Shown: positions 10,639 through 31,551 of the stretch, one piece after another
Layout of the letters: every line of letters begins with the position of its first letter
Position numbering within the stretch: position 1 is the first letter of the stretch
Assembly (NCBI GenBank): GCA_002162095.1
Contig: CP021424.1
Span: 806,001 to 870,000, forward strand
DNA from: Armatimonadetes bacterium Uphvl-Ar2
Lineage (GTDB): Bacteria > Armatimonadota > Fimbriimonadia > Fimbriimonadales > Fimbriimonadaceae
Reading direction: 5' to 3'
DNA length: 64,000 nucleotides
Translations under genes and position numbers: made by a program
Notes under the pieces: model-generated
Told to the model about the DNA's origin: nothing
The model's input: the letters and a program-made list of their open reading frames with translations, nothing else
The model's database searches: none

Positions 10639-10650
10639 CCGCGCCTCCCT

Positions 10651-12143: not shown

Positions 12144-12176
12144 AAGACAGAACTGGATAGAATGAGAGCAACGCTG

Positions 12177-12524: not shown

Positions 12525-12578
12525 GTTTGTGCCCTCGTAGGTTCTCTCTAGGCAAGCTTTGCCGAGTTGACCGCAACG

Positions 12579-14159
12579 ATGACCACCTGGATCGCGAACG
12601 CTGAACGATGCCAGCGCATGGACCAACGGGCCTCCCAAGAATTCGGGATTCCCAGGGACCAGCTTATGGAACGTGCCGGCAAGCTCGTGTTCGAGGCTAT
12701 GGTCGAACTCTTGCCGGATGGCGGCTCGCTCACCGTGCTGTGCGGCAAGGGCAATAACGGCGGCGATGGCTTTGTGGTGGCCCGACTGGCCCACGAGCGA
12801 GGCTACGGTGTTGAGTGCCTGGTCGCGACTCAGAATCCTGGCGATCTCTCCCCGCTTTGCGCCTTGCAGTTTGAGAAGGCCGTCGCGGCGGGCATTACCC
12901 CCCACTTTGCCGGCGAAACGGGCTGGACAAGGCGACTCGAGAGCATCCCTTGCCGCGACTTGGTGATTGATGCGCTCCTCGGCACCGGTGTTACCGGACC
13001 GGTGCACGGCTCGATTCTGGAGGCCATCGAGGCTGTGAATCGCAGTGGAACCCCCGTGGTTTCGGTGGACATCCCGAGCGGTGTGCACACCGACACCGGC
13101 GAGGAACTCGGGGCGAGCATCTGGGCGCTCCGCACGTTGACGATTGGCTTGCCCAAGCCTTGTCTGTTCCAGGGCATTGGCATTGAGCACTCGGGGTTTT
13201 GGACGGTGGCCGACATTGGCTACCCCGCCGAAGTGCTGCGCGAACCCACCGAAGCGTTCTTGGTGAGCGAGCAGTGGGTGGGGCAGTTTTTGCCGGAACG
13301 GTTCCGGGCTAGCCACAAAGGCAGTAACGGCCATACGCTCATCGTGGCGGGCAGCCACTGGATGCCAGGTTCGGCGGTTTTGGCGGCCAAAGCGGCCGTG
13401 CGGGCCGGGGCCGGCTTGGTGACTGTGGCAAGCGTGCCTAGCGTGTGCCAGGCAGTGATGGCGCAGGTGCCGGAGGCGATCTTGCTTCCATTGCCCGAGG
13501 TTGATGGCGTTATCGCTCCGGCGGCGGCGGAGGTGATTCGCAACTACCCGCGTCGATTCCAGTCCGCATTGTTTGGTCCGGGCATTACGCACCAAGCCCC
13601 AGTGCGCGAGTTCTTACAACGCGTGTGGGAGAACTGGGAGCACCCCGCGTGTATCGACGCCGATGCCCTCAATTTGGTGGCCGAAGGCATTCCCCTTCCG
13701 ACCGGGCCGACCGTGATCACCCCGCACCCCGGCGAGATGAGCCGCCTGATGCAGGAATCGATCGCGCAGGTGCAGAACGACCGCTTTGACACGATCACCC
13801 GGGCCTCGGAGCAGTACCAAACCACAGTGCTCTTGAAGGGACCGTACAGCCTCATCCGCTCGCCGCGCGAACCGATCATCGTGAACAGCACCGGCAACCC
13901 CGGCATGGCCAGCGCGGGCATGGGCGATGTGCTGGCGGGCGTCATTGCCACCCTGCTGGCGCAGGAGCTTCCCCCGGCCCACGCGGCGGCGGTGGGTGCC
14001 TATTGGCACGGGGCGGCGGGCGACTGGGCGGCGGAGAATATCGGCCCCGTCGGCTTCTTGGCGCACGAAGTTGCGGATGCTTTGCCCCGGGCACGAGTTA
14101 CAATGATGGGAACGTGCGGATTGGATTCGTTCTCCTGTTTGGGTGGCTCGGAGCTTTAA
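12579..14159 (+). CDS. nnr: Bifunctional NAD(P)H-hydrate epimerase / ADP-dependent NAD(P)H-hydrate dehydratase
   Basis: Repairs hydrated NADH/NADPH. The N-terminal epimerase domain (~1-220, YjeF_N) shows VLCGKGNNGGDGFVVARLA, DALLGTGVTGPV and VSVDIPSGVHTDTGE. The C-terminal dehydratase (~225-510, ribokinase-like) shows SHKGSNGHTLIVAGS, TPHPGEMSRL and GNPGMASAGMGDVLAGVIA with the catalytic Asp in GMGD. Length 526 aa is usual for the fused form. ATG 12579 is preferred over the in-frame TTG 12567. The 3' end overlaps the next gene by 46 bases. Confidence 0.96.
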   Translation: MTTWIANAERCQRMDQRASQEFGIPRDQLMERAGKLVFEAMVELLPDGGSLTVLCGKGNNGGDGFVVARLAHERGYGVECLVATQNPGDLSPLCALQFEKAVAAGITPHFAGETGWTRRLESIPCRDLVIDALLGTGVTGPVHGSILEAIEAVNRSGTPVVSVDIPSGVHTDTGEELGASIWALRTLTIGLPKPCLFQGIGIEHSGFWTVADIGYPAEVLREPTEAFLVSEQWVGQFLPERFRASHKGSNGHTLIVAGSHWMPGSAVLAAKAAVRAGAGLVTVASVPSVCQAVMAQVPEAILLPLPEVDGVIAPAAAEVIRNYPRRFQSALFGPGITHQAPVREFLQRVWENWEHPACIDADALNLVAEGIPLPTGPTVITPHPGEMSRLMQESIAQVQNDRFDTITRASEQYQTTVLLKGPYSLIRSPREPIIVNSTGNPGMASAGMGDVLAGVIATLLAQELPPAHAAAVGAYWHGAAGDWAAENIGPVGFLAHEVADALPRARVTMMGTCGLDSFSCLGGSEL

Positions 14160-15058
14160 CGGCTTGGGCGGCCCCGGACTCGGTCAAACTCACCTTCCCC
14201 GCTCAGGCGGAGTACCTGGTGTGGGTGCAGAGCGAGTCAGAAACCTTCCTGACTGACCGCGCCACCAATATCCAGGGCACCAGTGGCGAAGTCAAAGTGG
14301 TCGCCGCCGGAGAGAAACCGAGCGTCTACGTGCTGGACGGCAAAACGAATCTCTTGGCGGTGAAGCCGCTGGGCGAGGTGAAAGACGCCGCCTGGACTCT
14401 GAAGAAGGAAGACTTCACCCGCATTGCCCGGCTGGACCTGACCGCCGAAACCAGCAAGGGCAAGGTGGCCAGTGGCCTCTTCCGTGTGAAAACCGGTGAC
14501 CAAACCCGCACTGCCCTGCTGACCCCCGAAGACAAGGGCCGCGTCACCCTGTGGAACCTGCCCCCCGGTCCGGTGGAGGTGGTATTCGAGACCAAATCGG
14601 GCGAGAAAACCCTCGCCACATCCGCCCAGCGTGTGGAGTTAAGCCGCGAAGCCGGCCGCGTGGGGGTGCTGGTGACCGCCGATGACGCCGCCCCCGTGGT
14701 GGAGCAGGAGAAGGACCCCGCCACGGGCCAAGAGCCCGGGGCCGCCGCCCCGGCGGGTGCCCGCCCAGGCGATGCCCCCGCGCCGCGTGCATCCGGTGGA
14801 GTTTCGCCCTTTGTAAGCCTGCTGACGGGCCTGATTGGCCTGGCCGCTGTGGGGGGTGTCATCTTCTGGCTGCTGAAGTACAAGGGCGACCAGGTGCAAG
14901 GCTTTTTGAAGCAGGCCGGGCTGGCCCAAGCCGCTCCGACCGCGGACGACGGGGACCCCACACCCCCATGGCCATCCCGCAGCGCCAAGGCCCGGGCGAG
15001 AAGATCGTCCTCGATCCCGTGGCAAACCCGGTGGCGACTCCCGTCGCCGCGCCCGTAG
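14114..15058 (+). CDS. Membrane protein, N-terminal part of a frameshifted FHA-domain protein
   Basis: Starts at GTG 14114 inside the end of nnr and encodes a signal peptide (IGFVLLFGWLGALTAWA). An all-beta extracytoplasmic region (~20-215) and an acidic/Pro-Ala linker follow, then one TM helix (FVSLLTGLIGLAAVGGVIFWLL, ~235-257) and a short cytoplasmic stretch. After about residue 283 the frame becomes implausible (Arg/Ser-rich). The overlapping frame at 14968 then encodes an FHA domain. Adding one C to the C5 run at 14963-14967 fuses both into a ~411-aa type I membrane protein with a cytoplasmic FHA domain. I think this is the original gene, broken by a one-base deletion or a sequencing error. 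Confidence 0.7.
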   Translation: MRIGFVLLFGWLGALTAWAAPDSVKLTFPAQAEYLVWVQSESETFLTDRATNIQGTSGEVKVVAAGEKPSVYVLDGKTNLLAVKPLGEVKDAAWTLKKEDFTRIARLDLTAETSKGKVASGLFRVKTGDQTRTALLTPEDKGRVTLWNLPPGPVEVVFETKSGEKTLATSAQRVELSREAGRVGVLVTADDAAPVVEQEKDPATGQEPGAAAPAGARPGDAPAPRASGGVSPFVSLLTGLIGLAAVGGVIFWLLKYKGDQVQGFLKQAGLAQAAPTADDGDPTPPWPSRSAKARARRSSSIPWQTRWRLPSPRP

Positions 15059-15348
15059 TCGTGCCCAGTAGCCCGCGTTTGGTGCTCAGTTCTGGTTCGC
15101 CGGTGGCCCTGGTCCCCGGCAGCATTGAACTCGGACGCGAAGTTACCGGGCCGTTGGCCATGCCTCAGGAGTCCAGTGTCTCGCGGCGGCACGCGCAGTT
15201 CGAATGGGATGGCGCCCACCTCACCGTCACGGACCTCGGCTCTACCAACGGCACCTACGTGCGCGGCACCAAAATCTCGGGGCCGACTCCGGTGCTGCCG
15301 GGCGACACCGTTCAGTGCGGAGCCATCGTCCTTCGCTTTGAGGGCTAA
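14968..15348 (+). CDS. FHA domain, C-terminal part of the same frameshifted protein
   Basis: A classic forkhead-associated phosphothreonine-binding fold: GSIELGREVTG (phosphopeptide-binding Gly-Arg), SVSRRHAQFEW (Ser-Arg-Arg-His) and VTDLGSTNGTYVRGTKI (the STNGT loop). It could be translated alone from ATG 14968, but the ribosome site is weak. The sequence before it reads as the continuation of the membrane protein upstream, if one base is restored. It ends in TAA directly abutting ATG 15349 of the next FHA gene, so the two are co-expressed. Confidence 0.8.
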   Translation: MAIPQRQGPGEKIVLDPVANPVATPVAAPVVVPSSPRLVLSSGSPVALVPGSIELGREVTGPLAMPQESSVSRRHAQFEWDGAHLTVTDLGSTNGTYVRGTKISGPTPVLPGDTVQCGAIVLRFEG

Positions 15349-16767
15349 ATGAACGGACTCTTTCGCGTTTTGGTGCAGGGGGCCATCGGGCGGGCGCTCG
15401 CGGGCTTCCTCGCGGGGGCCTTGGTGTGGTTGGTGGTGGAACCCATGTTCCCCAAGGCTGGCAACCTCGGCATCGCTTTCTCCGCCTCGCCGGAATGGGT
15501 GCGGGCCGAGCGCGCGCTCATCGTCGGCACCATTCTCGCTATTGGCATCGCCTGCGGGTTCATTCAAGGCCTCGCCAAGGGGAGCCGGCACCACCTTTGG
15601 GTCACCACTCTACTCGCCGCCGTGTTCACGTTCGTTGGCGGGATGATGGGCTGGCAAGTCAGCGGAGTCATTTTCCAGGCGATGATGGGCGCGCAGGTGA
15701 TGGCGCAACGCGACGGCGACCCCACCACCATCGTGCGGGTGTTCACGTTCATCCCCCTCGGCATTGGCATTGGCCTCGGGCTGGGCGTTTCTCAGCTCAA
15801 CGTGCGCGGCGCGATGTCGGGGGCCTTTGGGGGGCTCATCGGCGGGGCCGTGACCGGGATGATCTTCAATCCCATTTCCACCGTTTTGGGCACCGCCATG
15901 GTGGCCAACGCCAACCCCGGCGAAGTGGTCGAGATTGGGGCGCCGGGCCGCGCGGTGCTCACAGCAGGCATTGGGTTGCTGGTGGGGCTGTTTACGGCCT
16001 TAGCTGAGCAAGCCAGCCGCCGTGCGTGGGTGCGCCTGGTGGTGGGCCGCAACGAAGGCCGCGATTGGCCGATTGACAACCAGCAAACGCTGATTGGCCG
16101 CGATGAACGCGCGGGGATTCCGTTGTTCGGCGATGGGAGCGTGGCCCCGCACCACGCCACCATCGTCCGCCAGGACGGGCAGTATCTGCTGATGGATGCG
16201 GGAACCCCGGCGGGCATCGGCCATAACGGCATTCGGGTGCCGCAGGCGGTGCTTCAGCACGGCGACACCTTCCAGATTGGCGGGCATCAGTTGCAGTTCT
16301 TCCTGCGCGGGATGGGACGACCCCAACCCGTGGCGATGGTGAACCCCGGCGCGCAACCCGCCCCGATGACGCCCATCGTCCAAAACCCCTCCGTCCAAAA
16401 CCCCACCGCCCAGCCCATGCCCCAACCGATGGGCGCTGCCACCGTCGCAATTCCGGCACAACCCATGACGACGTCCGCCTACCAAATCGTGGTCCTTAGT
16501 GGCCCGATGGCCGGGCACCGGCAGTTCCTCACCGACCAATTCGAAATCGGAAGAGAAGGCACCGGCCTGCGGCTCACCACCGATAGCCAGGCTTCCCGGC
16601 GGCATTGCCTCGTCAGCATGGTGGCGGGCCAGGTGACGGTCACCGACCTCAACAGCACCAACGGCACCTACATCAACGGCCAGCGCGTGACGTCCTCGCC
16701 CTTGCGGCCGGGGGATGTGCTCCGCATCGGCGGTACCGAAATGCGCCTCGAGAATCCTGTAGCTTAA
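15349..16767 (+). CDS. Polytopic membrane protein with two cytoplasmic FHA domains
   Basis: The N-terminal ~220 residues form about five or six Gly-rich TM helices (e.g. ALAGFLAGALVWLVV, ALIVGTILAIGIACGFI, LLAAVFTFVGGMMGW, IPLGIGIGLGLGVS). A first, degenerate FHA domain follows at ~228-310 (LVVGRNEGRDW, LIGRDERAGI, VAPHHATIVR). After a Pro/Gln-rich linker comes a canonical FHA domain at ~385-470 (FEIGREGTGLRL, ASRRHCLVSM, DLNSTNGTYINGQRV). The two domains would dock Thr-phosphorylated partners at the membrane; the VWA protein encoded convergently is a good candidate. No kinase lies within the window. Confidence 0.88.
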   Translation: MNGLFRVLVQGAIGRALAGFLAGALVWLVVEPMFPKAGNLGIAFSASPEWVRAERALIVGTILAIGIACGFIQGLAKGSRHHLWVTTLLAAVFTFVGGMMGWQVSGVIFQAMMGAQVMAQRDGDPTTIVRVFTFIPLGIGIGLGLGVSQLNVRGAMSGAFGGLIGGAVTGMIFNPISTVLGTAMVANANPGEVVEIGAPGRAVLTAGIGLLVGLFTALAEQASRRAWVRLVVGRNEGRDWPIDNQQTLIGRDERAGIPLFGDGSVAPHHATIVRQDGQYLLMDAGTPAGIGHNGIRVPQAVLQHGDTFQIGGHQLQFFLRGMGRPQPVAMVNPGAQPAPMTPIVQNPSVQNPTAQPMPQPMGAATVAIPAQPMTTSAYQIVVLSGPMAGHRQFLTDQFEIGREGTGLRLTTDSQASRRHCLVSMVAGQVTVTDLNSTNGTYINGQRVTSSPLRPGDVLRIGGTEMRLENPVA

Positions 16768-16773
16768 AAGTGC

Positions 16774-18162
16774 CTAGACCTTGCCCTGGTCGAGGTTGAC
16801 CACGGTGCCCATCAGGGTCTTCTCGGCCCCGCCGAGGTCGCCCTTTTGGATCGCCTGCATGGCCAGGGTGACTTCCTGCGCCTCTTGCCCGCGCCCCTGC
16901 GAGGTCAGGATCATCTGCGTCTTTTGCAGTTCGGCCATTGCTTCGGCGAGGTTGATCTGCTGCGTCTTGAGCCCCATGATCGTGCGCTCGACAATGCGCG
17001 AGGCCGCCGAAACCTCCAGCGCCCCTGCCACGCGCGGGTCCACCGGCTGGCTAAACCGCTCGCGGTCGGCGGTGAACTCCTGCACAAAGTCCACATCCAC
17101 CGTACGCACCTGGCCGCTGGCGGTGTCTTCGAACGCCAACGTCCCGTTCATCACCCGGTAGTGCCCCAGCGGGTGGTTGGGGAACTCCAAATCGAACGCC
17201 TGGCGCAGGCTGTGCCCGCGCTCCAGGTCGGCGAGGTCCAGCGTGAACTCCCGCGACCCGGGGGCCACCTTGTGCCCGGCGGCTTCGCGCAATTCCACCC
17301 AGCGGCTGAGCTTGAGGCGTAGCTTGAGGTTGGTGGCGGCCACGCTCATGGCCGTGCGCAGCTCCTTGCCAAAGATCTCGGGCAGCATGTGCGGCTGCGG
17401 GATGTAGTAGTAGTTGCCCCCGGCCCGCTTGGCCATGGCGGCAATGAGCTCCTCGTTGTAATCCGGCCCGAAGCCCAAAAAGGTTGCCGTGATCCCCTGC
17501 GCCTTAGTCGCCCCGGCGAGTTCGGTGAGTTCGGCGAAGCCCTTCACGCCCGAGGTCGGCTCCCCGTCGCTCAGCACAATCATGCGGGTGGCGCGACTGG
17601 CATGGCGGCGCTCGGCCAGCATTCCGGCGGCCATCTGCACGCCGCCGTAGAGGTCGGTGGTGTAGCCGGCCGTCAGCCCCGCGATGCCCTGCTTGATGCG
17701 CTCGCGGTCCGTCACGTTTTGGGGCGCCATCAGCACGTCCACCTTCTCGTCGAACGTGATGATGCTCAGCACGTCGTCCGGGCCGAGTTGGTCCACCACC
17801 ATCTGGCAGGCTTCCTTGGCGTAGGCCAGGGGGGCGCCTTCCATGCTGCCGCTGCGGTCCACCACCAGGCACAAATTGAGCGGCGTGCGCGGACCCGCCG
17901 CGCCCAAACCGGGCAAAGCCACTCCATCGCCGGCGGAAATCTCCAGCACAAACTGCTCCCGGGCCGGGCCGTTGGCCAGCGTGGCTTGCCGCCCGTTGAT
18001 CACCGTCATGCTGATTCCGGGCGTGACCTGGAACGCCGTGGTCACCTCGCCGGTGGGGGCACTCAGGGGGCCTGCTGTCATCGCCTGGGTGCGATTCAGG
18101 TCCGTCGGATTCCCCGGACCTCCGACCATGGTCTTGTTCGGGTCGAACGGCGTCTGGCTCAT
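16774..18162 (-). CDS. VWA-domain protein with an N-terminal Thr-rich FHA-docking-type tail
   Basis: A 462-aa soluble protein. A von Willebrand factor A domain (~90-265) has an intact metal site: DRSGSM, then Thr in TTDLYGG and Asp in LSDGEPTSG. The C-terminal half is a beta domain (~270-370) plus a helical tail, as in the Mg-chelatase/YfbK-like VWA group. The first ~30 residues contain DPNKTMVGG and DLNRTQAMT, threonines in a context like the phosphorylated tails bound by FHA domains in other bacteria. With the FHA genes next door this suggests a phospho-dependent complex; this is inferred. TAAACT lies six bases before ATG 18162. Confidence 0.88.
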   Translation of the reverse strand: MSQTPFDPNKTMVGGPGNPTDLNRTQAMTAGPLSAPTGEVTTAFQVTPGISMTVINGRQATLANGPAREQFVLEISAGDGVALPGLGAAGPRTPLNLCLVVDRSGSMEGAPLAYAKEACQMVVDQLGPDDVLSIITFDEKVDVLMAPQNVTDRERIKQGIAGLTAGYTTDLYGGVQMAAGMLAERRHASRATRMIVLSDGEPTSGVKGFAELTELAGATKAQGITATFLGFGPDYNEELIAAMAKRAGGNYYYIPQPHMLPEIFGKELRTAMSVAATNLKLRLKLSRWVELREAAGHKVAPGSREFTLDLADLERGHSLRQAFDLEFPNHPLGHYRVMNGTLAFEDTASGQVRTVDVDFVQEFTADRERFSQPVDPRVAGALEVSAASRIVERTIMGLKTQQINLAEAMAELQKTQMILTSQGRGQEAQEVTLAMQAIQKGDLGGAEKTLMGTVVNLDQGKV

Positions 18163-18168
18163 GGTTCT

Positions 18169-18174
18169 AGTTTA
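18169..18174 (-). promoter_or_regulatory. -10 element TAAACT of the VWA gene
   Basis: On the minus strand TAAACT, six bases, then ATG 18162. It lies between the divergent VWA and purE genes, which each have their own hexamer. Confidence 0.45.
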
Positions 18175-18199
18175 GCTTGCCCCCGCCCCTTTTGAGCGG

Positions 18200-18205
18200 T
18201 ATCTT
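18200..18205 (+). promoter_or_regulatory. -10 element TATCTT of purE
   Basis: TATCTT, seven bases (GTGAACT), then ATG 18213; no Shine-Dalgarno between them. Confidence 0.45.
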
Positions 18206-18212
18206 GTGAACT

Positions 18213-18731
18213 ATGGGTGACGCAACTTCGACCCCCCTCGTCGGCATTATCATGGGGTCGGACAGCGATTTGCCGACCATGCAGCCCGCCGCCGAGGCGC
18301 TGGAAGAGTTCGGCATCCCCTACGAGCTCGAAGTCGTGAGCGCCCACCGCACGCCGAAGCGGATGTTCGAATACGCCCAATCCGCCCGCGCCCGGGGCCT
18401 GCGCATCATCATCGCCGGGGCCGGCGGCGCCGCCCACTTGCCCGGCATGGTCGCCAGTCTCACCCCGCTTCCCGTCATCGGCGTACCGGTGGAAAGCCAC
18501 GCGCTCAAGGGCATGGATTCTCTGCTCAGCATTGTGCAGATGCCCAAGGGGGTGCCCGTGGCCACCGTCGCCATCGGCAACGGGCGCAACGCGGGCCTGC
18601 TGGCCGTGCGCATCCTGGCCACCACCGACCTCGCGCTGGCCGGGCAACTGGACGCCGCCATCCTGCTGATGGAAAACGACGTGCTGCGCCGCAACGAGTC
18701 CGTCCGACGGACTACGGGCCGCCCCGAGTGA
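18213..18731 (+). CDS. purE: N5-carboxyaminoimidazole ribonucleotide mutase
   Basis: Class I PurE, converting N5-CAIR to CAIR in purine synthesis. Diagnostic blocks: [11 protein letters not shown] (substrate phosphate loop), [15 protein letters not shown] with the catalytic His, [49 protein letters not shown], and the C-terminal [10 protein letters not shown]. At 172 aa it has the normal length of the stand-alone enzyme. No purK is adjacent. It probably forms a short operon with folD 19 bases downstream, linking purine and one-carbon metabolism. Confidence 0.97.
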
Positions 18732-18750
18732 GCCGCCAAACTATCAAGGC

Positions 18751-19608
18751 ATGAGTGCTCCCATCCTGGACGGCCGCGCCCTAAGTACGCAGTTCCGCGC
18801 CGAATTGCAGACCCGCGTCGCCGCGCTCCGGGCTCAGGGCATCGTGCCGCGCCTGGAAGCCATCGTCGCCGCCCAGGACCCCGCCAGCCTCGCCTACGTG
18901 CGGATGAAGCGCAGCTGGGCCGAGAAAGCGGGCATGGAAAGCGGCAGCTGGGAAGCCAACGAACACACCACCCAGGCCGAGCTATTGGACCAGATCGCTA
19001 AGCTCAACGCGGACCCCAAGGTGCACGGCGTGCTGCTGCAACACCCGCTGCCCAAGCACCTGGATGAAGACGCCGCCCTACTGGCCCTGGGGCCGGACAA
19101 GGACGCCGACGGCATCACCCCTGCCAGCCTGGGGCGCCTGACGGCGGGCCTGCCGGGGTTCCGGTGCGCCACCCCGCTCGGCATCATGCGGCTGTTGCAG
19201 CACCACCAGATTGAACTCGCGGGCCGACGTGCGATTGTGATTGGGCGGAGCGTGATTTTGGGCAAGCCGATGGCCCTGATGCTGCTGGAAGCCAACGCCA
19301 CCGTCACCATCGCCCACAGCCGCACCCAAAACCTGGCGGACCTGGTGCGCGAGCACGACATTGTAGTGGCCGCCGTGGGCCGCGCCGAGATGGTGAAAGG
19401 CGACTGGCTGAAGCCCGGGGCCGTGGTGGTGGATGCGGGCTACAACAAGGTGGAGGGCCGCACCCACGACGTGGGCGACTGCGAGTACGACTCCTGCGCC
19501 GAGGTGGCGAGTTGGATCACCCCGGTGCCGGGGGGCGTCGGGCCGATGACGGTGGTCTCCCTGCTGATGAACACGGTGGACGCCGCCGAAGCCCAACTGA
19601 AAGGCTAA
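18751..19608 (+). CDS. folD: Methylenetetrahydrofolate dehydrogenase / methenyltetrahydrofolate cyclohydrolase
   Basis: Bifunctional enzyme that makes 10-formyl-THF, the formyl donor of purine synthesis. It has the signature YVRMK with Tyr49 and Lys53 (cyclohydrolase centre), GVLLQHPLPKHLDEDAAL, PDKDADGITPASLG, the NADP-binding IGRSVILGKPMALML, and the C-terminal TPVPGGVGPMTVVSLLMNT. Length 285 aa is standard. It follows purE by 19 bases. Its stop codon lies one base from the 3' end of the convergent RNase P RNA gene. Confidence 0.97.
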   Translation: MSAPILDGRALSTQFRAELQTRVAALRAQGIVPRLEAIVAAQDPASLAYVRMKRSWAEKAGMESGSWEANEHTTQAELLDQIAKLNADPKVHGVLLQHPLPKHLDEDAALLALGPDKDADGITPASLGRLTAGLPGFRCATPLGIMRLLQHHQIELAGRRAIVIGRSVILGKPMALMLLEANATVTIAHSRTQNLADLVREHDIVVAAVGRAEMVKGDWLKPGAVVVDAGYNKVEGRTHDVGDCEYDSCAEVASWITPVPGGVGPMTVVSLLMNTVDAAEAQLKG

Positions 19609-19609
19609 A

Positions 19610-19929
19610 GGAGTCAGGCTATAAGCCGGATTCTGTCTTTGTACGACGATTTCTCTCGGCGGCCTACCCGGAGGGTCACCGGGCCGGATCAGCCCCTCCC
19701 TATTTGGCCTTGCTGCGAATGGGGGTTACCAAGCCGAACGAGTTGCCCCGCTCGCTGGTGAGCTCTTACCTCACCGTTTCACCCTTACCCCGTGCCTTGC
19801 GGCCGAGGCGGTTTGTTTTCTGTGGCCCTGTCCGTCGGGTCGCCCCGCCCAGGCTTGCGCCTGGCACCCTGCCCTGTGCAGTCCGGACTTTCCTCCCCGG
19901 TTTCCCGAGGCCGTCGCCCGCCTGACTCC
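19610..19929 (-). ncRNA. rnpB: RNase P RNA (type A)
   Basis: On the minus strand the RNA begins GGAGTCAGGC and ends GCCTGACTCC, a perfect 10-bp P1 helix. Near the 5' end is GAGGAAAGTCCGGAC, and near the 3' end CAGAATCCGGCTTAT, the universally conserved P4-forming segments. Between them are ACAGAAA and GGGTAAGGGTGAAACGGTGAGGTAAGAGCTCACCAGC, also typical of bacterial type A. At about 320 nt it is on the short side. A TACAAT hexamer lies exactly 6 bases upstream of the 5' end. It is transcribed in the same direction as rnhC, 29 bases downstream of that gene's stop. RnpA, its protein partner, is encoded at 55.1-55.4 kb. Confidence 0.96.
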
Positions 19930-19935
19930 GCCCCT

Positions 19936-19941
19936 ATTGTA
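19936..19941 (-). promoter_or_regulatory. -10 element TACAAT of rnpB
   Basis: Minus-strand TACAAT with 6 bases to the RNA 5' end defined by the P1 helix. This gives an internal ruler: in this genome the transcript starts about 7 bases after the hexamer. Confidence 0.65.
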
Positions 19942-19958
19942 GCCGTTCCTTTGGCTTG

Positions 19959-20612
19959 CTACGAGAGCAGGGGACCGGCCCCGATCTTTTGGGTGGTCTT
20001 AAAGTGGAGCTTGGCGACTTCCTTCAGCTGGTCCGCGCCGTGGGTGGCCAGGAACCGGCGCCCCGCTGCATCCACCGGCGGCCCCGCCCCCTTGGGCAGG
20101 GTCATGGCGAAGCGCTCGCCCAGCGCATTGAGGCGGGTGAGGAACTCGGCGCGGGCCAGGATGCTGGCCGCCGCTACCGCAATGTCGCGCTCCCCGCGCA
20201 CCATGCTCACCAGTTCCACGCCGCGCCCGCGCTCCTTCAGTTTGCTGCGCAGGCCCTTGGGGTCGGCGAACTGGTCGCTGATGACGAGGCCGCAGTTGGG
20301 GACCTTTTCGAGGCAGTTCTCGATGGCCTGCGCGTGGCCCCAGGCCAGCAGTCGGTTGAGGTTGAGGATGCGGGCGTAGAGTTCGTTGTACTTGGCGGGG
20401 CCGATGGTGATCATGGCGTGGGGGCAGGTGCGCCGGATGATTCCCGCCAGGCGCAGGGCCTGAGGGTCGGTGAGTTGCTTGCTGTCGCGGACGCCTTCGA
20501 GTTCGGCGAGGTGTTCTGGGCCGACGTAGCAGGCCGCGATCACCAGCGGGCCGAAGAAGTCGCCTTTGCCGCTTTCGTCCACCCCGATGCGGGGCGTGGA
20601 GAGGTCGTACAC
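19959..20612 (-). CDS. rnhC: Ribonuclease HIII-like protein lacking the N-terminal domain
   Basis: Cuts RNA in RNA-DNA hybrids. The sequence begins almost directly at the catalytic domain: VDESGKGDFFGPLV (Asp12, Glu13), VRDSKQLTD (Asp43) and later SDQFAD. DESGKGD is the RNase HIII form (RNase HII has DEAGRG). Usual RNase HIII is ~300 aa, with an N-terminal TBP-like substrate-binding domain; here there are only 217 aa and no such domain. The start is GTG 20612, nine bases after a TAGAAT hexamer, with no upstream in-frame codons long enough to hold the missing domain. Confidence 0.88.
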   Translation of the reverse strand: MYDLSTPRIGVDESGKGDFFGPLVIAACYVGPEHLAELEGVRDSKQLTDPQALRLAGIIRRTCPHAMITIGPAKYNELYARILNLNRLLAWGHAQAIENCLEKVPNCGLVISDQFADPKGLRSKLKERGRGVELVSMVRGERDIAVAAASILARAEFLTRLNALGERFAMTLPKGAGPPVDAAGRRFLATHGADQLKEVAKLHFKTTQKIGAGPLLS

Positions 20613-20621
20613 GTTGGTTGG

Positions 20622-20627
20622 ATTCTA
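20622..20627 (-). promoter_or_regulatory. -10 element TAGAAT of rnhC
   Basis: Minus-strand TAGAAT, nine bases, then GTG 20612. It lies only about 24 bases from the plus-strand TACGAT of the first array gene, so the two promoters are divergent and close. Confidence 0.5.
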
Positions 20628-20644
20628 GTCGATGGGGTGGGGGT

Positions 20645-20716
20645 CTCAGGTACGATGCCCCCAGGCAGATGGACAAGGGCGGGGATGAACACCTGGTGGC
20701 CTTGCAACGGCTGGAA
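20645..20716 (+). repeat. Half copy of the array junction repeat (5' edge of array)
   Basis: Carries CTCAGGTACGATGCCCCCAG and the first ~48 coding bases shared by all four array genes, but lacks the gene-3'-end portion found in the three internal junctions. This marks the left boundary of the duplicated unit. It contains the hexamer TACGAT at 20651-20656, 12 bases before ATG 20669. Confidence 0.85.
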
Positions 20717-21658
20717 AATGAGCTGCGTCTTGTGCGCGAGAGCGTCGCCCTTGCGTTGCCGCACCTTCAGGGCCACAAGTTCTTTGCCTATCACAAGACT
20801 TCTCTCGGCGGCACCCTTGGTGGAGCGGCTTCCATCGCTGAGGATATTCAGAGGCTCAAGCCCTTTTGGAAGGATCTGGATCCCTCGGCAATCGATAAAC
20901 TCGCCGAGGCGGCGGGGACCGTGGCGGCCTACCTTGAACGCTTCCTTGGCTTGAGATCTCAGGGGCGGAAGGTCGGAAAGCAAGAAGCCAAGTCCATGTT
21001 TTGGGACATTCACCCTCACATTCAATCCATGTCGAAAGGTCGAACTGAACTGGATGTGAGAAGAGTTCACGCCGTCTTCGATCGGGCGGGATCGGCTTCA
21101 CACTCTCTCGGAGTCGAGTCCGACCAAGTCCAGCCTCCTTTGGAAGAGGAGCCCGCCCCAGAACGAGCTGACGCCATACGGTTTGCCGATGATATCGAGA
21201 CGCATCGAGATCACATCTTGCGTATTGATAGACGTCTTCGCCTCTTCGATCATCCTGATAACGTGAAGTGTTCTATTGTGGTCGCCGCATTGGCGATCAT
21301 TCTATCGTTGTACTTTAATGAAGGAGTTGTGACTCTCAGGGAGGGATTTGGTGTGTTACTTGCCATCGCAATGATGATTTTATGTCTTGCAGAAATCATA
21401 AGCGATGTCATTTCACACTTTCGATCAAATGAGTCACTAAAGGCTCGCGCTCAATTACTGGAGGTCGCCAGTAACTACATTCGCCAATCTGGGGGCCATG
21501 TGACATCCGATGCCATCTTTGCTCTCATCGCATACGCTTGGAGCCACCGCGACGACTGGACGACCAAATCCAAGGAAATCGCAAGGAAAACCGAAGAACT
21601 GAAGGCCCTCATCGCGGGCACGCCACCCAGCGGACCGACCGCTACTGCTGCCCAATAA
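20669..21658 (+). CDS. Array paralog 1: two-TM membrane protein of unknown family, 329 aa
   Basis: Function not recognised. It starts MDKGGDEHLVALQRLE, which all four paralogs share with at most one change. A helical N-domain (~15-195) has the shared pattern I..LK..W..L....L..L...A, here IQRLKPFWKDLDPSAIDKLAEAA. Two TM helices follow (~205-222 CSIVVAALAIILSLYF; ~228-250 GVLLAIAMMILCLAEII). A cytoplasmic helical tail contains KARAQLLEVASNYI and HRDD and ends KTEELKALIAGTPPSGPTAT. There is no signal peptide, so both termini are probably cytoplasmic. First of four tandem genes at a ~1.05-kb period. Low similarity in the middle and near-identity at the ends set it apart from ordinary recent duplicates. 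Confidence 0.85.
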   Translation: MDKGGDEHLVALQRLENELRLVRESVALALPHLQGHKFFAYHKTSLGGTLGGAASIAEDIQRLKPFWKDLDPSAIDKLAEAAGTVAAYLERFLGLRSQGRKVGKQEAKSMFWDIHPHIQSMSKGRTELDVRRVHAVFDRAGSASHSLGVESDQVQPPLEEEPAPERADAIRFADDIETHRDHILRIDRRLRLFDHPDNVKCSIVVAALAIILSLYFNEGVVTLREGFGVLLAIAMMILCLAEIISDVISHFRSNESLKARAQLLEVASNYIRQSGGHVTSDAIFALIAYAWSHRDDWTTKSKEIARKTEELKALIAGTPPSGPTATAAQ

Positions 21659-21768
21659 CCTCCGGCTGGCGCGCAGATTGCCCGCATGCTCGCCCCCTCA
21701 GGTACGATGCCCCCAGGCAGATGGACAAGGGCGGGGATGAACACCTGGTTGCCTTGCAACGACTGGAA
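21592..21768 (+). repeat. Array junction repeat, copy 1 (~177 bp)
   Basis: Comprises the last ~65 coding bases of paralog 1, a 62-base spacer and the first ~48 coding bases of paralog 2. It recurs, nearly unchanged, 1052 bases later and again after a further 1049. The spacer holds TTGCCC (21678-21683), 19 bases, then TACGAT (21703-21708), a possible promoter for each gene. Confidence 0.9.
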
Positions 21769-22710
21769 AATGAGTTCGCGGCACTCGACGCGGAACTATC
21801 CCGGGTTGACCAAGAACTCTCGCAGGTCCAAAAGGATATTGAGAATGGGTTTGAGATTTGGAGAGAGGTTCACTGCTCTCAAGTGTACGTAGAGCAGATT
21901 CGTGAGATGAAGCACTACTGGAAGGCCGCCGACGCCAAGCTGCTGAAAGAACTCATCCAGACGGCTAATCAAACGACTGGACTCTTTATGAATGAAGAGT
22001 ATTCGAACAGTTTGCATGGAAGTGTTGCAAAGCAAGCTGTTGCATCCAAACTTAATGACCTACAGCGTTGTAACCGACTTCTACTAAACGGTCGAAATGC
22101 CTTGAGTGCTGCAGTAGTAAGATTCATTCTCGCTGATACTAATCAGACTTCCGCACCTGGAAGATTTGCCAACCCTTACTACATGGAGGACGACCAGGGT
22201 TCGGAGTCTCTAGATTCCAATCGCGGATTGACTTTAGCCGAAGTGCTTCGCCTTCATGGCGAGTTTGCGATTGAATCCGTAAAAGGTATTTGGAACTACA
22301 TTGAACCAAACATCATACTTCCAATTCTACTCATCCTCACCACTGTTGCCAGCGCCATCAATCACTTCGCAGGCGGCAAACATCTTGAGCATAGATTCAC
22401 GTTTTACACGCTTTATATCGCAACAATATTTGCACTACTATTCATGATATGGAAATCACTATCCGATCGCAAGGGTGCCAGGAGAAGGATCATGTCTCGA
22501 GCGAACTTTCTGTTGACCGCGTCGGAGTTCCTTTCCGAGCCGAGAGAGCAGTCCAGCACGCCCCTGGCCATTGACCTGATCACCTTTGCCGCCCAGCACT
22601 TCGATGACGAGGAGATCGAGCCTGAGGCATTTGAATACCGTACGGCAGAACTGAAGGCCCTTATTGCGGGCACGCCGCCCAGCGGACCAACCGCTACCAC
22701 TACCCAATAA
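21721..22710 (+). CDS. Array paralog 2: two-TM membrane protein of unknown family, 329 aa
   Basis: Same length (329 aa) and layout as paralog 1: N-terminus MDKGGDEHLVALQRLENE, then a predicted coiled coil (LDAELSRVDQELSQVQKDIE). IREMKHYWKAADAKLLKELIQTA fits the shared pattern. Two TM helices follow (IILPILLILTTVASAI and FYTLYIATIFALLFMIW), then RANFLLTASEFL and the C-terminus TAELKALIAGTPPSGPTATTTQ. Between the ends it cannot be aligned to paralog 1 at the DNA level by eye. Codon use in the core is noticeably more AT-rich than in the flanking housekeeping genes. Both termini are probably cytoplasmic. No catalytic motif is seen. Confidence 0.85.
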   Translation: MDKGGDEHLVALQRLENEFAALDAELSRVDQELSQVQKDIENGFEIWREVHCSQVYVEQIREMKHYWKAADAKLLKELIQTANQTTGLFMNEEYSNSLHGSVAKQAVASKLNDLQRCNRLLLNGRNALSAAVVRFILADTNQTSAPGRFANPYYMEDDQGSESLDSNRGLTLAEVLRLHGEFAIESVKGIWNYIEPNIILPILLILTTVASAINHFAGGKHLEHRFTFYTLYIATIFALLFMIWKSLSDRKGARRRIMSRANFLLTASEFLSEPREQSSTPLAIDLITFAAQHFDDEEIEPEAFEYRTAELKALIAGTPPSGPTATTTQ

Positions 22711-22820
22711 GCTTCTGCTGTCGTGCAGATTGCCCGCATGCTCGCCCTCTCAGGTACGATGCCCCCAGGCAGATGGACAAGAGCGGGGATGAACACCTGG
22801 TTGCCTTGCAACGGCTGGAG
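22644..22820 (+). repeat. Array junction repeat, copy 2 (~177 bp)
   Basis: Same content as copy 1: the 3' end of paralog 2, a 62-base spacer with TACGAT, and the 5' end of paralog 3. It differs by a few substitutions, mainly in the first ~15 bases of the spacer. It lies exactly 1052 bases after copy 1. Confidence 0.9.
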
Positions 22821-23759
22821 GAGGCGCTGAATGCGTTGGCGCACCAAGCGACTGCGGCGCAGGAATTCCTCCTCCGCCGCCGGTTTTCCTCTCAAATGAA
22901 GCATGCCCTCAAGGGCCATCTTCAGTTTTCAGAGACTCTCTCGGGCGAGATACTCACGCTCAAACCACACTGGCCTGGGCTGGAGCCAGGTCTCTTGCAA
23001 GAATGCATCGAATGTGCCGAGCACACAACTACCATCCTCAGTCGTTTCAATGCGGTAAGCGAGCAGAAGCGAGCCCCTGGCCCTTTTGACATCGAAGGCG
23101 TCATCGCGCAGATTCCTAAGCCTATCGACTCTCTATCGAGTATTAGAGATCGCCTCGTTTCCCTAAGAGTTCGTTCTCTATTCCCTAATGAGTCCTCTCC
23201 TGTCGATGCAAGCGTCAATCACACAAACGTATCTGGAGACGACGAGGTCGATCTGGGCAAAGGCAATAGCATGAGGGCGCTTCATCTCGCGGACGAGATG
23301 GAATCTCAGGCGCACACGCTCCTCGATGGCCATCGCAAGTCAAGCCCTTTCACCGGTACTCCAATCCTGAGTGAAGCTGTTGTGTTCTCAAGCAGCCTCC
23401 TCGCCATTACGATTAGTAGGTTGAGCCCAAACCGAGGCTCGATGAGCGACGCACTCTTTGCAATCGCACTCGTCACGGCTGCGCTCAGCCTCCCCTCGAT
23501 CGTGAGAGACCTCGTTTTTAGAGCCAAAACCAGCAAGGCGGTAAAGGCGCGGGCGAGACTTCTCCTTGCCGCCAGTAGCCAAATCAAGGCGAGCCAGGGC
23601 GTGATCACATCAGCTCCCATGATTGAGATCATTGAGTTCGCATTGCGGCACCGCCATGATGAGACGGAATACAAGACCTTTGACTTGAAGACGGAAGAAC
23701 TGAAGGCCCTCAGCGCGGGCACGCCGCCCAGCGGACCGACCGCTATTGCTACCCAATAA
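22773..23759 (+). CDS. Array paralog 3: two-TM membrane protein of unknown family, 328 aa
   Basis: N-terminus MDKSGDEHLVALQRLE (one change), then a helical domain containing ILTLKPHWPGLEPGLLQECIECA in the shared pattern. An Asn/Ser-rich variable stretch at ~140-170 separates this from the two TM helices (EAVVFSSSLLAITISRL and DALFAIALVTAALSLPSIV). The tail KARARLLLAASSQIK...IIEFALRHRHDE leads to KTEELKALSAGTPPSGPTA. Length differs by one residue from paralogs 1 and 2. ATG 22773 is placed identically relative to the repeat. Function unknown; the shared architecture implies a common role with different recognition surfaces, which is an inference. Confidence 0.85.
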   Translation: MDKSGDEHLVALQRLEEALNALAHQATAAQEFLLRRRFSSQMKHALKGHLQFSETLSGEILTLKPHWPGLEPGLLQECIECAEHTTTILSRFNAVSEQKRAPGPFDIEGVIAQIPKPIDSLSSIRDRLVSLRVRSLFPNESSPVDASVNHTNVSGDDEVDLGKGNSMRALHLADEMESQAHTLLDGHRKSSPFTGTPILSEAVVFSSSLLAITISRLSPNRGSMSDALFAIALVTAALSLPSIVRDLVFRAKTSKAVKARARLLLAASSQIKASQGVITSAPMIEIIEFALRHRHDETEYKTFDLKTEELKALSAGTPPSGPTAIATQ

Positions 23760-23869
23760 CCTCCCACCGCCGCGCGGATTGCCCGCATGCTCGCCCCCTC
23801 AGGTACGATGCCCTCAGGCAGATGGACAAGGGCGGGGATGAGCACCTGGTTGCCTTGCAACGGCTGGAA
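23693..23869 (+). repeat. Array junction repeat, copy 3 (~177 bp)
   Basis: The 3' end of paralog 3, a 62-base spacer with TACGAT, and the 5' end of paralog 4. It lies 1049 bases after copy 2, the 3-base difference coming from the one-residue-shorter paralog 3. Confidence 0.9.
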
Positions 23870-24787
23870 GATGCACTGAATGCCTTGCAAGCAAGTACAT
23901 CTGCTGTTCGCATGCATCTTGCGAAGAGCAAGGCGATCTACATGGAGAAGTACTTCCTCATGGATTGGCTTCGCGTTCATCAATCAATGATCGCCAACCT
24001 TTTTTCGCTCAAGGGCTATTGGCCGAACCTCTCCGAACTACAACTAAGTGATCTCATTGATTTCGTGAAGCAATCGGATGAGCCTCTCAAGCAGCTAGCT
24101 GATGCCGGCGAAACCACCGGAACACTGCGCAAGCAAGATGTTGTTTCGGCACTCCTGCCTCTTCACTACCCATTCAAGCAAATCTGGAAGATTCGACTTG
24201 CCATTCATCAGATTCGGCTAGACCTCATCTACCCAAGCGGCTCTGATTCCCCGAGTACGACCCTAGTCGACACTCCTCAAGCTCATTTGATTCCGGGCGA
24301 CCCCGAGGCGCAGAGACAAGCGGAGGCATTGAACCTAGCCAATGAATTGCGGGCTCACGGCGAAAGCCTCGTTACGGATTTCAAGTCTCACCACCTCGCA
24401 ACCAAGCTGCCGTTGGTTACCAACAGTGCCTTTGCCGCCCTCTTCCTCTTTGCTCTTTCCGGGCGCCTCGTCGAGGATCGTAGTGACTACGCCAATATTA
24501 CGTTGAAGGCGACTTTCCTTATCCTGATTGCATACTTCTTGTTTCAACTTCAAGCCGCAGTGAATGAGCGATTGAGGTTGAAGGAGTCAGCTAAGGCACG
24601 GCGAAGGCTTCTTGTGGCCATCAGTGATTACATTGATGCCTCAACTGGGGCATCGCTGAATCCGGCGATCAAGGACATCATCGCGTACGCTATTGAGCAC
24701 CGTGACAACGTGCAGGCAGAGCCCAGCCAGTTTGACCAAAAGACTGAGGAACTGAAGGCCTTGGTTGCCAGCACCAAGTCTCTTTAG
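23822..24787 (+). CDS. Array paralog 4: two-TM membrane protein of unknown family, 321 aa
   Basis: N-terminus MDKGGDEHLVALQRLEDALNAL, close to paralog 3 over the first ~22 residues, then diverged. LFSLKGYWPNLSELQLSDLIDF fits the shared pattern. Two TM helices follow (LVTNSAFAALFLFALSG and ATFLILIAYFLFQLQAAV), then KARRRLLVAISDYID, IIAYAIEHRDN and KTEELKAL. It then ends in VASTKSL instead of the GTPPSGPTAT tail of the other three, so the right edge of the repeat is missing here. This is the last gene of the array; the convergent aminopeptidase gene starts 5 bases on. Confidence 0.85.
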   Translation: MDKGGDEHLVALQRLEDALNALQASTSAVRMHLAKSKAIYMEKYFLMDWLRVHQSMIANLFSLKGYWPNLSELQLSDLIDFVKQSDEPLKQLADAGETTGTLRKQDVVSALLPLHYPFKQIWKIRLAIHQIRLDLIYPSGSDSPSTTLVDTPQAHLIPGDPEAQRQAEALNLANELRAHGESLVTDFKSHHLATKLPLVTNSAFAALFLFALSGRLVEDRSDYANITLKATFLILIAYFLFQLQAAVNERLRLKESAKARRRLLVAISDYIDASTGASLNPAIKDIIAYAIEHRDNVQAEPSQFDQKTEELKALVASTKSL

Positions 24788-24792
24788 TCGAG

Positions 24793-25917
24793 CTACGCCC
24801 CGAGCTGATCCGGGTTCAGCCCCTGCAGTTCCGGCAGCAGGAAGATGCCGTCCTGACGGATGAGCACGTCATCGAACCAGACTTCCCCGCCGCCGTAATC
24901 CGCGCGCTGGATGTTCACGATGTCCCAGTGGATCGCGCTCTGGTTGCCATTCCCGCCCGGCCCGGTATACGCATTGCCCGGCGTGAAGTGGAAGCTCCCC
25001 GCGATCTTCTCATCAAAAAGCGTGTCCTTCATCGGGTGCAGCACAAACGGGTTGTAGCCCAGCGCAAACTCGCCAAAGTAGCGCGCCCCCTCGTCGGTGT
25101 CTAGGATCTCGTTCACCTTGTCGGTCTGCGCCCCTGCTTCGGCGTGCACAATGCGCCCGTCTTGCACTTCAAACCGGATGTTCTTGAACTCCGTGCCCTG
25201 ATACAGCGACACCGTGTTGTATTGCACCGTGCCGTTCACGCTCTCGCGCACCGGGCAGCTGAAGCACTCGCCATCGGGGATGTTGCGCCGCCCGTGGCAG
25301 CTCACGGCGCCAATGCCCTTGATGCTGAACTCGATATCCGTGCCCGGCCCCACCAGGCGCACGCGGTCGGTGCGGTTCATCAGCTCCACCAGCGGGCGGG
25401 CCGCCACTTCCATGCGCTTGTAATCCATGGTGCACACCCGGAAGTAGAAATCCTCCCACGCAGCGGTGCTCATGTTGGCCTGCTGGGCCATGCTGGCAGT
25501 CGGCCAGCGCAGGGCCACCCACTTGGTGTTGGGCACGCGCCGCTGGAACACCACCGGGGCCGCATACAGCTGGCTCCAAATCGTCATCTTGTCGCTCGGC
25601 ACGTCGGCCAGGGCGCTCACGTTGTGGCTGCCGCGAAGGGCAATGTAGGCCGTCATCCGGTCCATTTCGTCCGCTTCGTTGGCGGCAATGGTGGTGGCGT
25701 TGGCCTCGGTCATGCCCATCAGCAGTTGGCGGCGCACCACTTCGCTCTCGAGCCGCACTGCCACCTGCGCCCCGCTGGTTTGGGCCACCCGCACCACTTC
25801 GGCCACCGCATCCTCGGGCACATCAAAGGCGTGGATGAGCACGCGGTCATCGGACGTGAGTTGCGTGGAGTGGGTCACCAGGAGTTCGGCCAATTGCGTG
25901 ACGCGCGGGTCGAGCAT
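24793..25917 (-). CDS. M29-family aminopeptidase
   Basis: A thermophilic-type metallo-aminopeptidase (AmpS/PepS/aminopeptidase T family), 374 aa, cytoplasmic. The metal-binding C-terminal half is intact: PDGECFSCPVRES (Glu), YFGEFALGYNP, HPMKDTLFDEKIAGSFHFTPGNAY (His, Glu, His, Tyr) and SAIHWDIV (His, Asp). The N-domain begins DPRVTQLAELLVTHS, as in homologs. ATG 25917 is chosen over GTG 25926, because a TAAAGT hexamer lies seven bases before it. Divergent from the potassium/amino acid permease gene. Confidence 0.92.
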   Translation of the reverse strand: MLDPRVTQLAELLVTHSTQLTSDDRVLIHAFDVPEDAVAEVVRVAQTSGAQVAVRLESEVVRRQLLMGMTEANATTIAANEADEMDRMTAYIALRGSHNVSALADVPSDKMTIWSQLYAAPVVFQRRVPNTKWVALRWPTASMAQQANMSTAAWEDFYFRVCTMDYKRMEVAARPLVELMNRTDRVRLVGPGTDIEFSIKGIGAVSCHGRRNIPDGECFSCPVRESVNGTVQYNTVSLYQGTEFKNIRFEVQDGRIVHAEAGAQTDKVNEILDTDEGARYFGEFALGYNPFVLHPMKDTLFDEKIAGSFHFTPGNAYTGPGGNGNQSAIHWDIVNIQRADYGGGEVWFDDVLIRQDGIFLLPELQGLNPDQLGA

Positions 25918-25924
25918 ATTCTTC

Positions 25925-25930
25925 ACTTTA
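25925..25930 (-). promoter_or_regulatory. -10 element TAAAGT of the aminopeptidase gene
   Basis: Minus-strand TAAAGT, seven bases (GAAGAAT), ATG 25917. It overlaps the alternative GTG start, which argues against that start. Confidence 0.5.
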
Positions 25931-29537: not shown

Positions 29538-31551
29538 CGCGCGCCGACTTCTCGCCACATTTACCCTCGTGGTGGTGGCGGTGGTCGCGTATGCCCAGGT
29601 TCAGCTCGATCAGAGCAACCCCCGCGCATTGCTTAAGACCTTTCCGGAGGTGATGCGCTCGGGTTCCCTCTCCGACGCGCTCCCGGCCCTGGATATCGAC
29701 CGAAAGCCGGAGGACAACGAAGGCTCTCCTACCCCCGAACTTGAGCGCACACTGACTCATCTGGCTGAGGTGCTCGATGCCCTGGGGGTTGACCCTAGCC
29801 AAGTGCCTGAGAACCCCGGCGCCGACCGCCTGACGGTGCAGCCCGTGCGCAACGAGTTCGACAGCCTAGTCGGCAACGTTTCTCTGGTCCGCAACGGGAG
29901 CCGCTGGCAGTTCAGCCGCGAGACTCTCGCGGACCTGGATGCCATTCACACCGCCGTGTTCCGGGCGCGCTCCGGAGAAGGCACGAGCGGCGAAGTGGCC
30001 AAGGATGTGGTCGCCCCGGACGGATTGAAGTCTCCGCGCGACACGATGCGCACGTTCCTGACGGCGATGAACGAGGATCGCCCCGGAGAAGCGGCGGCCG
30101 CACTGGACCTGCGCCAAATCAACTCCGTCATTCGCGATGAGGAAGGCCCGCGTTTGGCGGCGCTCCTGCTTGCCATCCTCAACCGGACGGAGTACATCGA
30201 CCTCAGCCGCATCCCCGACGACCCCGCCGAAGAGCCGTTCCTCTACCGCTCGTACACGCAGCGGGCAACGGGTCAAGCGGTGGGCAGTATTGTCCTGGCC
30301 CGCCAGGAGGATGGTGGCTGGCGGTTTACCCCCACCACGGTCAAGGAACTCGATGCGATTTGGCAGACGGTGAAGGATCAGCCGCTGGTATCTGGCACCA
30401 AGGACATCGACCCGGCCGCCCTCGATCCCTCGGCGTATCTCAAATCGCAGTTCCCGCCGCAGTTCCACGGCAAAACGTTGTGGCTAGAAAACTGGCAGTG
30501 GCTGAGCCTGCTGGGGTTGCTGTTGGGCGCGGGAGCCATTGGCCACGGGGTGCGCTTGGTGGTCCGCATGGTGCTGCGTCGCACGCTCAACCCGGATCAG
30601 TTCGCCGCGAACCGCTCTAAGCTCCGCACCTTTGGCCGGTCGCTCAGTTTGGTCATCGCCTGTAGCGTGCTGCACGCGGGGCTGGCTTCACTCGGCTTGC
30701 CCGAGTGGTGGCGCGCCACTCTCTTGGTGGTGGCCAAGCTCGGCTGGGCGCTGGGCGGGGCGATGGCGCTGAGTGCCGCCTGGGATCTGGCCCTGGCGTG
30801 GTGGTCACGCCGGGACGAAGCCCAAAGCGGTCGCCGCGAGAAGCTCGTCGTGCCGGTGCTCAGTCGCCTCGCCCGGGCGTTCCTGCTCGTCCTCGCGCTG
30901 TTCGTGTTTTTGGCGGCCATCGGGGTCAATGTCACGGGCATCGTGGCGGGCCTTGGCATCGGGGGCTTGGTGGTGGCGCTGGCGGCCAAGGATAGTGTCG
31001 AGAACCTTTTTGGCTCCGTCACGGTGCTGGTCGAATCCCCTTTCCAACTTGGAGATTGGATTCGGATTGGCGATGTGGACGGCGTGGTGGAGGAGATCAA
31101 TCTGCGCTCCACCCGGGTGCGGACCTTCCAAGATTCGCTCATTACGCTCCCTAACAGCCGCCTCATCACCGCCCACGTGGAGAACTTCGGGCGCCGCCGA
31201 CGCCGCCAAGTCAAGACAAAACTCGGGCTCTCTTACAGCACCACGGTGGAGCAGATGACCGAATTCACGGCCCGCGTGCGACACCTCTTGGCCTCCCACG
31301 ACTCCGTTTATGAGGGCGAAAGCTACGCCTACTTCGCCGATTTTGGCGAGAGCACGCTGGATGTTCGCTTACAGTTCTTCTTGCTCGCGGAAACCCTGGG
31401 CGAAGAGCTCCGGTTGCGAGAGGAAATCATGACGGAAATCATTCAGATTGCCCAAGATATGGGCGTTACGTTTGCCTTCCCCACCCGTACATTGGTACAC
31501 GAGCCCACCACGCCGCCCGTCGTGCCAAACTCACCTCAGTATCCCAAGTGA
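29530..31551 (+). CDS. MscS-family mechanosensitive channel with a large periplasmic N-domain
   Basis: A 673-aa member of the long MscS/MscM class. A signal peptide (LLATFTLVVVAVVAYAQ) and a ~300-residue periplasmic region precede three TM helices. The pore-lining TM3 and vestibule show the family pattern GIVAGLGIGGLVVALAAKDSVENLFGS, then ESPFQLGDWIRIGDVDGVVEEINLRSTRVRTFQDSLITLPNS, and the cytoplasmic alpha/beta domain. Releases solutes under membrane tension. It overlaps the deacetylase upstream by 8 bases and the peptidase downstream by one base, so the three genes form one envelope operon. Confidence 0.93.
   Translation: MVSARRLLATFTLVVVAVVAYAQVQLDQSNPRALLKTFPEVMRSGSLSDALPALDIDRKPEDNEGSPTPELERTLTHLAEVLDALGVDPSQVPENPGADRLTVQPVRNEFDSLVGNVSLVRNGSRWQFSRETLADLDAIHTAVFRARSGEGTSGEVAKDVVAPDGLKSPRDTMRTFLTAMNEDRPGEAAAALDLRQINSVIRDEEGPRLAALLLAILNRTEYIDLSRIPDDPAEEPFLYRSYTQRATGQAVGSIVLARQEDGGWRFTPTTVKELDAIWQTVKDQPLVSGTKDIDPAALDPSAYLKSQFPPQFHGKTLWLENWQWLSLLGLLLGAGAIGHGVRLVVRMVLRRTLNPDQFAANRSKLRTFGRSLSLVIACSVLHAGLASLGLPEWWRATLLVVAKLGWALGGAMALSAAWDLALAWWSRRDEAQSGRREKLVVPVLSRLARAFLLVLALFVFLAAIGVNVTGIVAGLGIGGLVVALAAKDSVENLFGSVTVLVESPFQLGDWIRIGDVDGVVEEINLRSTRVRTFQDSLITLPNSRLITAHVENFGRRRRRQVKTKLGLSYSTTVEQMTEFTARVRHLLASHDSVYEGESYAYFADFGESTLDVRLQFFLLAETLGEELRLREEIMTEIIQIAQDMGVTFAFPTRTLVHEPTTPPVVPNSPQYPK

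Follow-up and report, generated by a model that had tools for sequence, protein, structure and literature searches.

Within the 64,000-nt window (the whole stretch of DNA analysed, in which the positions below are counted), we found an array of four genes for two-transmembrane (TM) helical proteins with near-identical ends and deeply diverged cores, seated between two housekeeping genes at a site that, in the nearest relative compared, holds one different gene instead. As an orphan family, with sharp constant ends and the replacement of a whole slot in an otherwise collinear region, this is an unusual combination; the locus is the most novel part of our analysis, and the comparison with that relative, UBA2785, is its strongest new result. 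The explanation that we tentatively prefer, and to which we give somewhat less than an even chance, is that of a hypervariable slot where the ends are kept alike by recombination, the units are exchangeable, and the products would serve in intracellular conflict.

The array consists of four intact ORFs arranged head to tail on the plus strand at positions 20669–24787 (Table 1), with start-to-start distances of 1052, 1052, and 1049 nt, and these coordinates bear out the number, lengths (329, 329, 328, and 321 aa), and spacing of consecutive ORFs that an earlier note on this DNA had given. Residues 1–16 read MDKGGDEHLVALQRLE in all four ORFs, with G4S in ORF3 as the single change, just as that note had allowed for at most one. 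Its common end of about 20 residues in three of the four proteins is likewise found in ORFs 1–3, which close with (K/R)T(E/A)ELKAL-AGTPPSGPTA---Q, a block of ~22 residues, and at the C-terminus of ORF4 KTEELKAL is kept and then followed by a different end, VASTKSL. Overall, the amino acid identity to ORF1 is just 25–33% for the other array proteins. The host genome is a single contig of 2.63 Mb, assigned to the Fimbriimonadaceae (Armatimonadota) by the named relatives of its flanking aminopeptidase. No further array copies were found elsewhere in it; what had looked like another head copy, at genome position 1060828, was dismissed as a 23-nt match within a different gene.

Table 1. Coordinates of the array, its repeats, the variable slot, and the flanking genes in the window.
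Feature	Position	Strand	Remarks
Left flanking gene, RNase HII/HIII family	19959..20612	-	protein 100% identical in UBA2785
Variable slot	20628..24796	.	4169 nt here vs 1128 nt in UBA2785; flanked by the genes for RNase HIII and M29 aminopeptidase
Head repeat copy 1	20644..20725	+	25 nt upstream and ORF1 start; repeat family D2
ORF1	20669..21658	+	329 aa; helical domain, two-TM hairpin (TM about 196-215, 223-244), and helical tail
Tail-spacer-head junction repeat 1	21587..21777	+	ORF1 end, 65-nt spacer, ORF2 start
ORF2	21721..22710	+	329 aa; architecture as ORF1
Tail-spacer-head junction repeat 2	22639..22829	+	from repeat families and boundary scan
ORF3	22773..23759	+	328 aa; architecture as ORF1; C half modelled alone
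Tail-spacer-head junction repeat 3	23688..23878	+	from repeat families and boundary scan
ORF4	23822..24787	+	321 aa; architecture as ORF1; of the tail, only KTEELKAL in common
Truncated tail block in ORF4	24740..24774	+	GAACTGAAGGCC invariant, rest diverged; forms the right-hand array end
Right flanking gene, peptidase M29	24793..25926	-	protein 98% identical in UBA2785

The likeness of the ends goes beyond the protein level and is that of a DNA repeat. An 82-nt head repeat family, comprising the 25 nt upstream of the ATG and the first codons, is 91–94% identical across the four copies. In a 214-nt repeat family covering the tail, the spacer, and the next head, the figure is 82–85%; for the tail of ORFs 1–3 plus the 65-nt spacer, the nucleotide identity is 79–91%. 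More conspicuously, the boundaries of these repeats are sharp, with a drop to background identity within a few nucleotides of the shared ends. Here, a change-point scan placed the head identity at 91–96% up to +47 to +66 nt and at 23–38% beyond that, with a tail identity of 88–91% starting 61–70 nt ahead of the stop codon. Upstream of the ORF1 ATG, the spacer is represented by its last 25 nt alone, and ORF4 is without most of the tail and without a spacer after it, which together imply that the repeated unit extends from −25 through the whole spacer and that the array was trimmed on both sides. An integron-like cassette array was considered and rejected, since the spacers are without attC-like folding (z −0.5 to −1.4 vs shuffles on both strands, and so little better than these); moreover, the neighbouring proteins that were scanned with Pfam include no integrase. 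Elsewhere in the genomes of the class, the junction DNA gave only chance-like matches of 19–39 nt.

In windows of 15 codons, the nucleotide identity is mostly 20–55% in the cores vs 96% in the head, a profile of near-identical edges and diverged cores that agrees with the earlier description. The cores are indeed related, though not by pattern only, as had been claimed: they are homologous by local alignment, with scores 6.6–33 SD above shuffles and none of 300 shuffles being as good. At the edges, the pooled pS and pN are 0.185 and 0.013 for the head and 0.24 and 0.10 for the tail, these being rough estimates, with that for the head resting on about two synonymous differences per pair, and the 65-nt spacer differs at 6–10 positions. 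The cores, on the other hand, are saturated, and being homologous but saturated they are far older than the split from UBA2785, relative to which the genes flanking the array have a pS of 0.14–0.15. By the same substitution counts, the common ancestor of the edges, or their last homogenisation, would be roughly as old as the divergence of the two genomes. Because the likeness extends to the spacer, which is not translated, recombination is favoured, whether as gene conversion or as unequal crossing-over, and the low pN/pS ratio suggests that the head peptide is under constraint too. Of the two alternatives that the earlier note had offered for the edges, homogenisation thus gains support from their low synonymous difference and alike spacer beside saturated cores, and functional locking gains support for the head protein; as far as these estimates go, both apply.

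UBA2785 (genome G001), a MAG from the Fimbriimonadaceae (Armatimonadota), is the nearest relative that we compared. Positions 7717–64000 of the window match its contig C38 as two collinear blocks, 7717–20627 (12.9 kb, 90.7%) and 24797–64000 (39.2 kb, 92.5%), with 75 gap positions in total and exactly one interruption in the ~52 kb, which is at the array. The slot in UBA2785 is occupied by a single gene that encodes 358 aa in the same orientation as the array, and the start of this gene, like that of ORF1, lies ~55 nt from the RNase gene. In fact, its product also has the layout of the array proteins, with a long N part, two TM helices, and a C-terminal tail, but the gene has none of the common head and tail ends, and its protein has no significant similarity to the array cores (Z at most 2.15; hhalign P 0.08). 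Since the topology is shared without significant sequence similarity, assignment to the same family is unproven; and since both the shared ends and any significant core similarity are missing, the slot contents were replaced, rather than the array being simply expanded or shrunk. The variable copy number anticipated in the earlier note is borne out to the extent that one different gene fills the slot there. Base composition sets the slot apart as well, with a GC3 of 53–63% in the array and 50% in the UBA2785 slot gene vs 78–89% in five nearby genes. Such low GC and a sharp replacement between conserved flanks resemble strain-variable islands between housekeeping genes, though, unlike these, the slot is filled with one size class and one topology in both genomes seen. 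Raised flank identity near the slot (95.0% vs 91.6% elsewhere) was rejected as a sign of recent transfer, because other stretches are equally high.

Some further features of this region and its flanking genes were observed. Identity to UBA2785, with a median of 93%, falls to 79–82% over ~3 kb at window positions 10717–13716, where the gene order is kept, and to 82–84% in two 1-kb stretches at 30717–31716 and 49717–50716. Among those genomes of the family that have the two flanking genes near each other, one (G011) separates them by only about 18 nt, leaving an empty site, and in another, of a different genus (G005), an unrelated 225-aa ORF with one predicted TM segment lies between them (L037, about 3230–3907), so that the M29 peptidase–RNase HIII junction may be a recurrent insertion site.

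Judged by hydropathy, all five proteins (the four from the array and the one from UBA2785) have two TM segments and no signal peptide, and each carries positive charge after TM2 and an inter-TM loop of 4–18 residues. From this charge and the short loop, the N and C parts are predicted to be cytoplasmic, as in an N-in/C-in hairpin. The AlphaFold model of ORF1, made from the four-sequence alignment, is all helical (pLDDT 71.6, pTM 0.63), with helices up to residue 144, a helix at 164–189, TM1 at 196–215, a helix at 223–273 that holds TM2, and two short helices. A model of the ORF3 C half (pLDDT 75.7), for which the UBA2785 protein was added to the alignment, matches this picture. When searched against the PDB with Foldseek, nothing below an E-value of 0.1 was returned, the matches being generic helical ones alone; VIA-align Z-scores of ~10 or less for helical bundles are uninformative by that tool's own note. 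A variable surface family, as raised in the earlier note, is disfavoured, as the missing signal peptide and the positive-inside pattern predict nearly the whole protein to be cytoplasmic.

The family had not been recognised from the sequence, nor did it find a match in Pfam, NCBIfam, PADLOC, PHROGs, or, by sequence, the PDB. Profile scans of 100 relatives, of the 113 genomes of the class, and of 291 genomes of the phylum revealed no further array homologs, and the weak extra profile matches, part of which were examined, lay in or against TolC-like, RmuC, McsB, HslU, NADH dehydrogenase, and other unrelated genes. Peptide-pattern scans of viral contigs and of genomes from 84,980 species gave no array relatives, and neither did searches of plasmids and phages. 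Against defence HMMs, the array proteins produced nothing at a meaningful E-value. Those neighbouring proteins scanned with Pfam include FHA, vWA, purE, folD, RNase HII, M29 peptidase, permease, deacetylase, and MscS, with no defence or toxin genes among them, so the co-localisation with defence genes that the earlier note had put forward as a check was not seen in this neighbourhood.

In the explanation that we prefer, the slot between two housekeeping genes would hold four members of a private, cytoplasm-facing, two-TM helical family here, and in UBA2785 a single protein that is built alike but otherwise very different. The four cores would represent old, mutually diverged lineages, with the short ends (a 25-nt leader and ~16 codons on one side, ~22 codons and the 65-nt spacer on the other) kept alike by recombination between copies and by purifying selection on the head. 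From these ends come direct repeats of ~190 nt, by which RecA-type recombination could add, delete, or swap whole units, and the units may move between cells as well; a point against such exchange is that the array is known from one genome only. As to function, the helical N domain might sense or bind a fast-changing intracellular partner, such as some component of a phage or a toxin that a rival delivers; at the inner membrane, the two-TM hairpin would then act either as an abortive-infection effector or as an immunity protein. The array is probably concerned with intracellular conflict, in that it turns over fast, has a foreign composition, places its variable domains in the cytoplasm, and comes in several copies; as there is no defence or toxin gene among the scanned neighbours and no meaningful defence HMM match, this functional half rests on turnover and topology. 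A bolder form of the proposal, which we think unlikely, is a new gene-cassette system of neither the surface nor the integron kind, in which complete membrane-protein genes with portable homology ends would be traded and stacked within the species at a fixed slot, giving a heritable repertoire for intracellular recognition or immunity. Should other strains prove to carry new cores between these same ends, the array would exemplify a simple way of building an intracellular recognition repertoire through RecA, and would do so in a phylum where little genetics has been done. Environmental metagenomes can now be searched at a concrete locus (in this genus, RNase HIII to M29 peptidase) and with two diagnostic sequences, and the orphan two-TM family is worth testing for phage defence.

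The main rival to an exchangeable-unit slot supposes nothing more than gene conversion acting on the ends of old paralogs, without exchange between cells. Here, the array would have arisen long ago by tandem duplication of a gene for an ordinary membrane protein, with cores too drifted to convert and similar ends that kept converting; the ends would be a passive relic, and the UBA2785 locus would have been replaced by chance. We regard this as a real possibility, if on the unlikely side, in that gene conversion by itself explains like ends and unlike cores and the four genes are intact, near-equal in length, and collinear. However, the slot is the sole rearranged place in 52 kb, and its occupant in UBA2785 is a gene of the same topology but unalike; moreover, the low GC3 suggests a recent arrival, and no single-copy ancestor is detectable in any genome of the family. 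Very improbable, to our mind, is surface antigen variation with silent cassettes, as in msp2 or vlsE, even though conserved ends, a variable core, and tandem copies are common to both (PMC4534519, PMC2789410). In Anaplasma msp2/p44 and Borrelia vlsE, near-constant 5' and 3' ends enclose a variable core in tandem or clustered copies (PMC4534519), and the constant ends of the array could similarly act as recombination arms. Unlike those cassettes, though, the array units are four complete genes with their own start codons and not silent fragments, the whole 270-codon core is diverged, with 25–33% amino acid identity to ORF1 being far beyond cassette variation, and the product has no signal peptide and a core predicted to face the cytoplasm. 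Nor were silent donor copies and a single expression site identified, there being four full ORFs and no other copies in the genome.

Alternatively, the array could be a bank of membrane immunity proteins in tandem, directed at two or more toxins that are secreted or delivered by contact, with the toxins themselves absent. Arrays of orphan immunity genes exist, and the array members are tandem, intact, and diverged, but typical immunity proteins are smaller than these, and no toxin, secretion, or RHS/LXG-like gene is present among the scanned neighbours; we hold this reading to be rather improbable. Polymorphic toxin systems are described as having diversified immunity proteins (PMC3482391). 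Their genes are like the array in being diverged paralogs that occur in runs and vary between strains, and unlike it in that the array is without a toxin or secretion marker and that near-identical ends are not a defining feature of such genes. A different effector reading, as stand-alone SLATT-like two-TM conflict effectors, takes up a likeness suggested in the earlier note, and we consider it doubtful enough to be given only a slight chance. Its topological part stands, as the two-TM hairpin with both termini predicted inside and a helix running on past TM2 is also that of SLATT/DUF4231. Moreover, Foldseek searches of a viral library included four SLATT-named proteins among the best 50 matches to the C half (probability 0.28–0.84) and two SLATT-named viral proteins for the whole model, though these matches are weak (E-value 0.2 or worse, TM-score at most 0.46). 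Membership finds no support in the sequence tests: the array proteins have no Pfam SLATT or DUF4231 match at E up to 1 or 5, and a profile–profile comparison of the family with DUF4231/SLATT sequences of the same phylum gave a probability of 0.1–0.4%. The large N-terminal helical domain and the tandem arrangement set the array apart too, and among the Pfam-scanned neighbours there is no SMODS, SLOG, TIR, or nucleotide second-messenger enzyme, including nucleotide cyclase. SLATT proteins also occur stand-alone, and the missing partner therefore weighs little.

Elsewhere in the Fimbriimonadaceae, a 605-aa protein (G110, contig C16, L169:550-2367) has a middle part that matches DUF4231 above the cut-off and a C-terminal part with a sub-threshold SLATT_1 match, and its N part looks SLOG-like by eye. 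On these matches, it is likely to be a SLATT effector unrelated to the array.
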